The notes beneath the pieces were generated by a model, which saw nothing but the letters and a program-made list of their open reading frames with translations, was not told the DNA's origin and searched no databases. From Candidatus Zixiibacteriota bacterium (GTDB lineage: Bacteria; Zixibacteria; MSB-5A5; RBG-16-43-9), in assembly GCA_030692925.1 (NCBI GenBank), contig JAUYBY010000110.1:1-42148 (forward strand): a stretch of 42,148 nucleotides of DNA. The letters run 5' to 3'. Shown piece by piece: positions 16,907-38,494 of the stretch. The position numbers and the translations under genes are program-made. Numbering within the stretch: position 1 is the stretch's first letter; every line of letters starts with the position of its first letter.

Positions 16907-18082
16907 CTACACCACCTCTAAAATCGCGCATTTCAGATATTCGGTCTCCGGCATAGACAAAAGGATCGGATGGTCTTTTGCCTGGGTGCGGAACTCGATC
17001 AGGCGAAGCGTCTTATGTGCATCTTTTGCGGCTGATTTAAGCATCTCCATAAAAAGGTCTTTAGAGAAATTATGCGAACAGGAACAGGAAATAAGTATTC
17101 CACCCTTGTCTAAAAGCTTCAAAGCTTGGAGATTAATCTCCTTGTAACCTTTCATCCCCTCTACCAATTTGCTTTTGCTTTTCACAAAAGCCGGTGGATC
17201 TAAGATAACCATATCGAATTTTTCATTCTTTTGTACCAACCCTCTCAAGACATCAAAGGAATCCCCTTTTACAAAAGTGCAGAGCTTTTCAACCTCATTT
17301 AACTTAGCATTCTTCTGCGCTAACTCCAAACTTTTCTCGGAGCTATCGATCCCCAAAACACCTTTTGCTCCATTCTTAGTTGAAGCTATCCCCCAGGCAC
17401 CGGTGTAACAAAAACAGTCCAGCACTTTTCTTCCTTTGGCATAGATTGCGCCCATTAACCGGTTTTCCTTCTGGTCAAAGAAAAAACCGGTCTTCTGCCC
17501 CTCTTTCAAATCCACAAAGAATTTCAAGCCGAACTCCTCGATCAGAGCTGGACTCTCGATATCGCCTTTGACAATTTTCACTCCTTGAACCAGACTCTCC
17601 AACTCTCTGAAAGAGGTATCGTTCCGCAGAACTATTCGAGCAGGCAGGAATAACTTCTCGCAAGCCTTGATAATTTCAGCCTCAAATTTCTCCATCCCTA
17701 AAGTCAAAATCTGCAGGACCAAATTTTTCTCATATCTATCTATAATCAAGCCCGGCAAAAAGTCGCCTTCAGAATAAACCACTCGGTAGGAAGAAAGCTG
17801 GGGATAAATCCTGTGCCTGTATTTCAATGCCTGTTCAATCCTTTTGAAAAAGAAATCGCCATCTATTTTCTCATCCTTTTCATAGGTCAAGACCCTTATT
17901 GCAATTAGAGAATGACGGTTATAATACCCCTTTGCTAAGAAGCCCCCTCTAGAGTCATGCACTTCTACAACTTCCCCTTCCCCTTTTGCTTCTATAAGCT
18001 CATCTATCTCATTAGAGAAGACCCACAGATGCCCCTCTCTTATCCTTTTATCCTCGTTCCTTTTTAATCTTATCTTTTCCAA
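16907..18082 (-). CDS. rlmI: Class I SAM-dependent rRNA methyltransferase, RlmI-like
   Basis: 391 aa. N-terminal PUA domain (LKRNEDKRIREGHLWVFSNE) and a Rossmann-fold methyltransferase: SAM motif I VLDCFCYTGAWGIA (about 227-240), acidic GIDSSEKSLELA, catalytic-loop VILDPPAFVKSK, and CSCSHNF with the cysteine typical of m5C enzymes. The pattern DCFCYTG ... DPPAF ... SCSC is that of RlmI, which makes m5C1962 in 23S rRNA; target specificity is inferred from family. Downstream of larC on the same strand, with REP-like hairpins on both sides. Confidence 0.92.
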   Translation of the reverse strand: MEKIRLKRNEDKRIREGHLWVFSNEIDELIEAKGEGEVVEVHDSRGGFLAKGYYNRHSLIAIRVLTYEKDEKIDGDFFFKRIEQALKYRHRIYPQLSSYRVVYSEGDFLPGLIIDRYEKNLVLQILTLGMEKFEAEIIKACEKLFLPARIVLRNDTSFRELESLVQGVKIVKGDIESPALIEEFGLKFFVDLKEGQKTGFFFDQKENRLMGAIYAKGRKVLDCFCYTGAWGIASTKNGAKGVLGIDSSEKSLELAQKNAKLNEVEKLCTFVKGDSFDVLRGLVQKNEKFDMVILDPPAFVKSKSKLVEGMKGYKEINLQALKLLDKGGILISCSCSHNFSKDLFMEMLKSAAKDAHKTLRLIEFRTQAKDHPILLSMPETEYLKCAILEVV

Positions 18083-18114
18083 AAATTTCTCTCGTGTTTT
18101 TTGCTTTGACCTTC

Positions 18115-18174
18115 GTAGGGGCGGAGTTTATCTCCGCCCTATATTTAGGGGGTGGAGGCAAGCTCCACCCCTAC
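18115..18174. repeat. Paired GTAG hairpins in opposite orientation (BIME-like)
   Basis: GTAGGGGCGGAG with CTCCGCCCTA, then TAGGGGGTGGAG with CTCCACCCCTAC. Two different stems arranged foot-outward across 60 bases, the composite layout called a BIME in enterobacteria. Lies between the rlmI start and the larC stop. Confidence 0.75.
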
Positions 18175-18187
18175 GCGATTTTTATCC

Positions 18188-19423
18188 TCATTCTTCTCGA
18201 ATCTTGTCCCTACGGAAGTTTTTTTCTCGCCTCCTTTTTGGGACAGAACGATGTTCTGTCCCTACGCCTGACCAGAAATTCTTTTCGACTTCTCTGTACA
18301 CTTCTCTCAATGCTATCTTATTTTTGTCAGCCAAAGCTCTGCAATCCTCAAATTCAGGAGAAATATGAACTTTTTCTCCATAAGTGATTACCTTTACCCG
18401 TGCTTTTCCAAACCTCGTATTAACCACTTCGATCTTTCGGGGAAGTTTTTTTCTTAAATGAAATTGAGTCCTGAATCCAATGGTTCCGGTCTCGGAAAAG
18501 ATAATGGAAGAAAGCTCATTCAACTTGTTAGCATTACACAGAACCGAAAGAATAGTTCCAGGTCTTCCCTTTTTCATAATGATAGGCACAAGATAAACAT
18601 CCAGAGCACCTTTTTGCAAAAGCTTTTCTGTAAGATATCCTAAGACTTCGGGAGTAGTGTTGTCAATGTTGGTCTCCAAAACTAAAATCTCATCCTGCTC
18701 TAAGTCCTGTTCTTTTTGGCCGATCACCACTCTTAGGAGATTAGGGATTTCCTTTAAATCTGCTGAGCCAGCTCCATACCCCACCTTTTCGATTTTGAGA
18801 TCCAGCCTGGGTGAAAAATCTGCTAAGGTAGTTACGATCGCTGCACCGGTCGGAGTGACCAACTCGCCTTCTATATCAGCATATCTTACTGGAATATCTT
18901 TGCAGAGCTCAACTGTGGCTGGGGCAGGAACAGGAAATTTTCCATGAGAGAATTTGACATATCCTTTTCCAAAAGAAAGCGGAGATGAATAGATTTTATC
19001 GACTTTAAGAATGTCCAAGCCTATAACCGCACCCACGATATCGATTATCGCATCCACTCCCCCGACTTCATGAAAATGGATTTTATCAACACTTACACCG
19101 TGAACTTTTGCCTCAGCCTCAGCTAACCTTCTGAATATTTTTTTAGAATCATCCCTGATTTTTTTATCCAGAGAACTTTTATCAATTATTTTGAATATAT
19201 CTTTCAGATTTCTGTGAATCTTCTCTTCAGGTGCTTTGACCTCAAATTTCGTCCCTTTGATTCCCTTTTTTTCAGTTTTAAAAGCTTTGATCTGATATCC
19301 TGTCAAAGGGAGTTTCTTAAGCTCTTTTTTTAGAGCCGAAATCTCCAGCCCCGCATCTAACAAAGCTCCGATAATCATATCCCCGGCAATGCCGGAGAAA
19401 CAGTCAAAATAAGAGATTTTCAT
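18188..19423 (-). CDS. larC: Nickel-pincer cofactor biosynthesis protein LarC
   Basis: CTP-dependent cyclometallase inserting nickel into the pyridinium bisthiocarboxylate mononucleotide. From the ATG at 19423 the protein is about 411 aa and opens MKISYFDCFSGIAGDMIIGA, the standard LarC start; HFHEVGGVDAIIDIVGAVIG, GELVTPTGAAIV and NIDNTTPEVLGYL follow. It is one continuous frame, unlike the frameshifted larC1/larC2 of lactobacilli. An upstream extension to 19450 falls in a hairpin repeat and is rejected. The last 25 residues (from Val387) are encoded across repeat DNA at 18188-18265 and read VGTEHRSVPKRRREKNF..., not family sequence. Confidence 0.93.
   Translation of the reverse strand: MKISYFDCFSGIAGDMIIGALLDAGLEISALKKELKKLPLTGYQIKAFKTEKKGIKGTKFEVKAPEEKIHRNLKDIFKIIDKSSLDKKIRDDSKKIFRRLAEAEAKVHGVSVDKIHFHEVGGVDAIIDIVGAVIGLDILKVDKIYSSPLSFGKGYVKFSHGKFPVPAPATVELCKDIPVRYADIEGELVTPTGAAIVTTLADFSPRLDLKIEKVGYGAGSADLKEIPNLLRVVIGQKEQDLEQDEILVLETNIDNTTPEVLGYLTEKLLQKGALDVYLVPIIMKKGRPGTILSVLCNANKLNELSSIIFSETGTIGFRTQFHLRKKLPRKIEVVNTRFGKARVKVITYGEKVHISPEFEDCRALADKNKIALREVYREVEKNFWSGVGTEHRSVPKRRREKNFRRDKIREE
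18240..18265. repeat. GTAG-footed hairpin inside the 3' end of larC
   Basis: GGGACAGAAC and GTTCTGTCCCTAC, the same stem as 13915-13943. A second partial foot, TTGTCCCTACG, lies at 18204-18214. Read on the minus strand the hairpin codes the extra LarC tail. Confidence 0.8.
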
Positions 19424-19437
19424 AGATTTACTCATTG

Positions 19438-19560
19438 GTAGAACAGACATTCTTGTCTGTTCTCTTATTCAATGTCAGACACGAATGTCTGACCTACCTG
19501 TGGCAGAATCAACCCTTTTTGATTACCTATTTATAGGACAGGCACAGAAGCCTGCCCTTA
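19438..19560. repeat. Three hairpins between larB and larC
   Basis: 19438-19463: GTAG then AACAGACA/TGTCTGTT. 19474-19497: GTCAGACA...TGTCTGAC then CTAC. 19534-19560: TAGGACAGGC/GCCTGCCCTTA. The first two have the GTAG foot; the GTCAGAC stem recurs at 28357-28397 and 29078-29097. Confidence 0.7.
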
Positions 19561-38322: not shown

Positions 38323-38423
38323 GACCCACATTGCCCTCAATGTGGGTCATACTGAGACATTAACGGTAGCGTTGCCACACCTGTGGCAACGTAGAAACGT
38401 CCTCACGGGAGTGAGGACGCTAC
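38323..38423. repeat. Three hairpins between convergent genes
   Basis: 38323-38348: GACCCACATTG/CAATGTGGGTC. 38366-38394: GTAGCGTTGCCACA with TGTGGCAACG, GTAG-footed. 38398-38423: CGTCCTCA/TGAGGACG then CTAC, the same element as 522-547 and the truncated copy at 42131. Confidence 0.75.
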
Positions 38424-38494
38424 GAACTTTGTACAAACAACTAAAATTAGTTTGAGATTTTCGGTTTCAATCCCGCCTCAAGCTCCAGCAGATA

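Follow-up and report, generated by a model that had tools for sequence, protein, structure and literature searches.

A GTAG-type REP hairpin within the 3′ end of the larC reading frame in a family of Zixibacteria

Background

Here we report a short palindromic repeat, a GTAG-footed REP hairpin, that lies inside the reading frame of larC in a Candidatus Zixiibacteriota bacterium (genome G000, 2.4 Mb) and supplies the first part of a C-terminal tail foreign to the LarC family. Our explanation, which we hold with considerable confidence, is an old REP insertion at the stop or 3′ end of larC that is read through and has been tolerated. The analysis concerns a window of 42,148 nucleotides, the whole stretch of DNA under study (contig JAUYBY010000110.1 of assembly GCA_030692925.1), together with the rest of its genome, the family genomes G001, G002 and G003, and LarC loci from outside the family. 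It follows up an earlier note on the same DNA.

Results

The larC frame runs through a REP hairpin

The larC frame, 420 codons counted from the first start, is open throughout and stays in frame across the hairpin at 18240-18265 (Table 1). Its product belongs to the LarC family, with matches above the cut-offs of PF01969 (496.6 bits, 6.2e-149) and of the NCBIfam LarC1/LarC2 models TIGR00299 and NF052512. The Pfam model stops at residue 385 of 420, which bears out the claim of the earlier note that the tail is not part of the family, and a solved LarC chain (12bi_D) aligns with residues 9-386 only (2e-94). In an AlphaFold2 model based on an alignment of 24 LarC sequences, the last helix spans residues 381-395 and residues 397-420 have a pLDDT below 50. 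The core is constrained, with dN/dS values of 0.06-0.17 in six pairwise comparisons over 386 codons.

Table 1. Features at the 3′ end of larC and in the adjoining DNA (positions are those of the window)
Feature	Position	Strand	Details	Evidence
larC, nickel pincer cofactor biosynthesis (nickel insertion) protein	18188-19450	minus	420 aa; family domain residues 14-385	PF01969, TIGR00299, NF052512, 12bi_D
GTAG-footed REP hairpin GTAGGGACAGAACATCGTTCTGTCCC	18240-18265	minus	encodes VGTEHRSV and two bases of P404	genomic copies, fold, same site in G001, G002 and G003
Coding spacer, last base of P404 to E420 (KRRREKNFRRDKIREE)	18191-18239 (49 coding bases)	minus	codons 405-420	single-copy in genome; disordered in model
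TGA stop of the extended larC frame	18188-18190	minus		ORF reading
Possible old duplicate of the methyltransferase gene start (18046-18074)	18180-18208	minus	24/29 alike to the G002 copy	repeat scan
REP doublet, opposite orientation (GTAG...CTAC, REPIN/BIME-like)	18115-18174	minus	downstream of the larC stop	fold and many genomic matches
SAM-dependent methyltransferase with PUA domain, downstream gene	16907-18082	minus		PF10672, PF17785

Val396, which comes directly after '...EVEKNFWSG', is encoded at 18265-18263 by the GTA of the GTAG foot. That the tail begins at the foot had been proposed before and holds here; the valine then numbered 387 becomes Val396, the former count having started from Met10. 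The presence of the hairpin inside the frame is likewise confirmed, by the ORF itself, by the genomic matches described below and by the fold, a 10-pair stem of -15.7 kcal/mol (z -5.5) that none of 200 shuffles equals.

Eight full codons and two bases of a ninth (396-404) come from the hairpin, about 9 of the 25 codons of the tail, which reads VGTEHRSVP-KRRREKNFRRDKIREE. All 25 had been attributed to the hairpin together with neighbouring repeat DNA. The hairpin share of this claim stands, while the other 16 codons lie in single-copy DNA. When 18176-18239 was searched alone against its own genome, with all seven candidates scored, only the self match was significant and the next best had an E value of 0.13. 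A search with the whole junction, in which 40 of 73 candidates were scored, gave two weak matches that pass from the hairpin slightly into the spacer (query 25-59 at 86 % and query 28-73 at 78 %). The repeat DNA that actually adjoins this region is the REP doublet, which lies beyond the TGA stop rather than within the coding sequence.

The repeat is abundant and mostly extragenic

Allowing up to two mismatches, the pattern GTAGGGACAG-N9-CTGTCCC has 55+61 = 116 matches in G000, spread over many contigs, against 0+0 for the reversed control. In the other family genomes the counts are 81 (G001), 73 (G002) and 64 (G003), with 2, 1 and 0 in the reversed controls. Further out, the pattern is matched 3 times in G004, 8 times in G005, once each in G006 and G026 and not at all in G011 (controls 0, 0, 2, 1 and 0). 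By sequence and fold the larC hairpin is a palindrome in the range of 20-40 bp with GTAG at one foot, as GTAG-type REPs are, and its family is both of high copy number and dispersed. It is also predominantly extragenic, as judged on 72 distinct copies merged by hand from 100 listed of the 116 places. The proposal that an intergenic element had become coding sequence is supported in this respect: the repeat is nearly always extragenic in G000 and is read as coding at the larC end. The base preceding GTAG is C in larC and T in 51 of 77 strand-wise copies, a count in which symmetric elements appear on both strands.

Y1_Tnp has five matches in the genome, four of them over the cut-off. The Y1 gene at L061 is flanked on either side by GTAGCGTCCTCAC-type repeats (L061:1390-1416 and 1938-1964), and the Y1 gene at L063 has one such repeat on one side (L063:1187-1212) and a different GTAGCG doublet on the other. 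These two Y1 (RAYT-like) genes are probably REPtrons of a different REP family. Scanning the stretches around the five Y1_Tnp loci revealed no GTAGGGACAG-type repeat flanking a Y1 gene. Palindromes of the GTAGCGTCCTCAC type also occur within the window, at 520-548 and 38396-38424.

In the 72 copies, drawn from the 100 places listed out of 116, C-terminal read-through is verified for larC alone, and a single copy supplies a stop codon via its foot. With its GTAG in stop phase, this copy (G000:C96:54418-54443; L044:1501-1526) ends an acetyltransferase-like gene (PF13480) with TAG. A related GTAG hairpin likewise gives a TAG stop in G001; G002 shows no such element there, and its stop at that position is TAA, a natural empty-site comparison. 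Thus the landing phase of the foot decides whether a gene is given a stop, as on C96, or is read through, as in larC.

About ten ORFs of at least 120 aa carry a copy close to their 5′ end. Six of them were scanned with Pfam: a domain begins after the element in those on C1, C31 and C55, the C55 match being under the Pfam cut-off, and those on C66, C13 and at C21:25286 have no Pfam match. The others are those at C18:21582, C39:10438, C80 and C87. Copies at 5′ ends were not counted as coding, and ORFs that span a copy but are shorter than 120 aa were set aside. No closed ORF of at least 60 aa lies over the copy at C45:124-149. A 140-aa ORF on C47 (L124) was considered as a second C-terminal case and rejected, an antisense ORF being the most likely explanation. 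Pfam has no match for it, its best matches in six relatives span only its first 92-101 residues, all six with internal stops, and the opposite strand carries a long frame that we take to be nitrilase-like.

One site and four different tails in the family

The hairpin sits at the identical larC codon in all four family genomes examined (G000, G001, G002 and G003), and is therefore older than the genus. An insertion that rewrote specifically the larC of this one genome, as the earlier note had it, does not agree with this shared position, nor with a hairpin share of 9 codons in 25. The extra tail length in G000 comes from a separate second change downstream of the hairpin.

Across the family the tail exists in four versions, which differ in length and sequence and, in G001, also in frame. 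The G002 tail is VGTGRRSVHK, with a stop just past the hairpin; an extra G puts the G001 tail, VGDRASFCS, in a different frame; and the G003 tail, VGTEQYSIREKLGRR, finds its stop within a second REP. G001 and G002 share a short spacer unlike that of G000, and the spacer at 18191-18239 is present in G000 only. Between G000 and G002 there is no difference in the last 120 core bases, yet there are three in the 26-base hairpin, and the spacers are unrelated. The whole stretch from the hairpin to the next gene is unrelated in these two genomes, although the first blocks of that gene are identical at 57/59, 118/120 and 119/120 positions. G000 and G003 agree in 20 of the 26 hairpin bases at a core dS of about 1.9, near saturation. 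Persistence of this degree exceeds the neutral expectation and fits constraint or later gene conversion.

Two further observations concern the surrounding DNA. In G003 (L004) a second inverted REP (GGGCGGAGATGAACTCCATCCCTAC) lies directly behind the larC hairpin and resembles the right half of the doublet at 18115-18174; this unit may be ancestral and may have been lost in G001 and G002. Apart from hairpin and spacer, window positions 17785-18430 are about 97-99 % identical by block between G000 and G002, other larC blocks are 87-93 % identical, and a segment at about 18671-18790 is identical at 120/120 positions. This mosaic of identity suggests homologous recombination between congeneric species.

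To place the natural end of the protein we rely on a survey of LarC C-termini, in which 75 loci were tried and 73 aligned, 68 of them from outside the family. The 73 include the window (L001) and two copies of the G002 locus (L002 and L066), and two outside pairs share DNA (L068/L071 and L094/L097). With a defined stop in 67 outside loci, 63 terminate at or before query residue 405 (62 when a shorter look-back for stops was used); the family ends at 404-420. Four outside LarCs run longer, three of them via His-rich stretches. The family end thus falls close to where the repeat went in, and a natural end was replaced or slightly lengthened by it. VGTE, VGDR or RSV occurs in none of the 68 outside tails, so that these loci do not bear out the possibility, raised in the earlier note, of unrelated orthologues carrying the same tail. 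The relative sought there, lacking the insert and with an earlier stop, was not present among the close relatives examined. With no empty larC site found, we infer the insertion from its position, and an entry upstream of the stop fits as well as one at or after it.

The REP doublet, the spacer and the downstream gene

The segment containing the doublet (18112-18180) folds at -40.6 kcal/mol (z -6.3) and is multi-copy, with many genomic matches to query 104-179. The pattern GTAGGGGYGG with a fixed loop gave one match against three in the control, a result that is noise and probably reflects a wrong loop length for the doublet. The methyltransferase encoded downstream is presumably RlmI-like.

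Part of the larC spacer resembles the start of this gene. When the spacer was aligned locally, the methyltransferase start was the top place among 3504 window segments, with a score of 18 for its own copy and 19 for the G002 copy; of 2000 dinucleotide shuffles, 6, 0, 5 and 106 reached the spacer score with the G000, G002, G001 and G003 targets, respectively. In a BLAST-type search with the spacer, up to E 10, the methyltransferase gene start was absent from the matches. The alignment, the one test on which the duplicate reading depends, is suggestive of an old and diverged copy of the methyltransferase start, in which case the residues DKIREE would come from the first codons of the neighbour, read in a different frame. 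At 18075-18115, before the TTG start of the methyltransferase, G001 and G002 have AGAGGGTCAGG, a possible ribosome site, and the window has other sequence. This change may also touch the start of the methyltransferase gene.

Discussion

We propose that a short, non-autonomous GTAG-type REP entered larC at its 3′ end in an ancestor common to the whole family, as the four orthologous copies would indicate. The foot would have landed as GTA-Gxx, one of the two phases without a TAG stop, and the larC frame would then have crossed the hairpin and run on to a stop that by chance lay behind it; this course is read at the level of the sequence, and translation of the tail is putative. The resulting peptide would have been tolerated because it lies past the last helix, in a stretch predicted as disordered. 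Each lineage would later have reworked its tail, by an early stop in G002, by an extra base and a change of frame in G001 and by a stop in a second REP in G003. In G000 a replaced spacer would add 16 codons, with the REP doublet behind it. Since neither the length nor the frame of the tail is kept, the core is constrained and the tail is modelled as disordered, the tail is most likely an appendage without function that is merely tolerated.

The order of events could also have been different. The REP may have inserted just past the original stop, which a later mutation removed, so that translation would run on into an extragenic REP. According to PMC3733652, REPs often lie within 20 bp of gene ends, and here 7 of the 77 strand-wise copies overlap the stop of an ORF of 100 aa or more on the same strand, or start at most 30 nt after it. 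Most outside LarCs finish by residue 405, which would allow an original stop at 396 or close to it. However no stop or spacer remnant is left where the family-like residues give way to GTAG, and the foot adjoins the same codon in all four genomes; we consider such a loss of the stop possible, though short of probable. We find it hard to believe that the 25-residue tail arose as an artefact of assembly or consensus in a draft genome of 112 contigs. A spacer seen in this genome only, where G001 and G002 share another, and a site between repeats, where misassembly is common, would be expected of an artefact, but a single-copy spacer was not joined in from another copy of the repeat present in this assembly, and the hairpin-encoded part is present in four genomes.

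The hairpin may act in the larC mRNA. It could have been kept as an RNA element of the message, for 3′ protection or for slowing of the last codons, with the tail as a by-product; this is compatible with an insertion that was read through and tolerated, and we rate it as rather unlikely. Its retention at one codon throughout the family speaks for such a role, and so do inner stem changes in G002 and G001, which keep G-U pairing on the larC strand. That strand folds at -13.1 versus -8.5 for the opposite one in G002, and at -8.8 versus -0.3 in G001. For E. coli, PMC12306157 reports that REPs within 15 nt of the stop stall ribosomes. In G003, however, the comparison is reversed (-4.9 on the larC strand versus -8.2 on the opposite strand) with 3 of 10 stem pairs broken, the outermost pair is broken in both G001 and G002, and four sequences are too few. 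There is also no Rfam match up to E 0.1, and between 17900 and 18500 no terminator-like site lies on the larC strand, with two on the other. Much less likely still is the bolder proposal that hairpin and phase together are a REP domesticated as the end of larC, in which translation through the hairpin would tune LarC output or coupling to the methyltransferase and selection would have acted on the RNA, not the peptide, since before the genus split.

Read as insertion, read-through and tolerance, larC offers a well-bracketed natural example of a short mobile palindrome that alters the end of a protein. Across the four genomes the tail varies freely and the core is constrained, an argument for tolerance of tails of this sort rather than for their selection.

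GTAG-tagged REPs, including intragenic REPs, were reportedly described by Di Nocera et al. in 2013, and Rickettsia palindromic elements are said to have been reported by Ogata et al. With the GTAG-tagged REPs, as presented in PMC3733652, the larC element shares the GTAG foot, the palindrome of 20-40 bp, the high copy number, the inverted doublets and a position mostly downstream of genes. Both outcomes, the foot as a stop and read-through, are already published in that paper. The cases differ in that the word Zixibacteria is absent from the paper and in that the age of the insertion is bracketed here by orthologues; among the matches listed from the open-access REP literature, Zixibacteria are not mentioned either.

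Among in-frame cases the Rickettsia palindromic elements are the best known (PMC10969869), and they resemble the larC hairpin as palindromic repeats in frame inside protein genes (PMC10969869, PMC3733652). They are, however, described as about 150 bp long with a conserved in-frame peptide, whereas the larC hairpin is 26 bp long and C-terminal and its peptide frame is not kept, that of G001 being different. The doublet at 18115-18174 is built like the REPINs/BIMEs of PMC3116915 and PMC2817692, as two inverted REPs with outward GTAG feet, from which the larC hairpin differs as a single unit. Enterobacterial small mobile sequences that are read intragenically (PMC2759123) likewise add residues to proteins by means of a small mobile repeat, but are other and longer elements of 103-168 bp. 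Events of this kind have been published before, and the larC case is a new instance.
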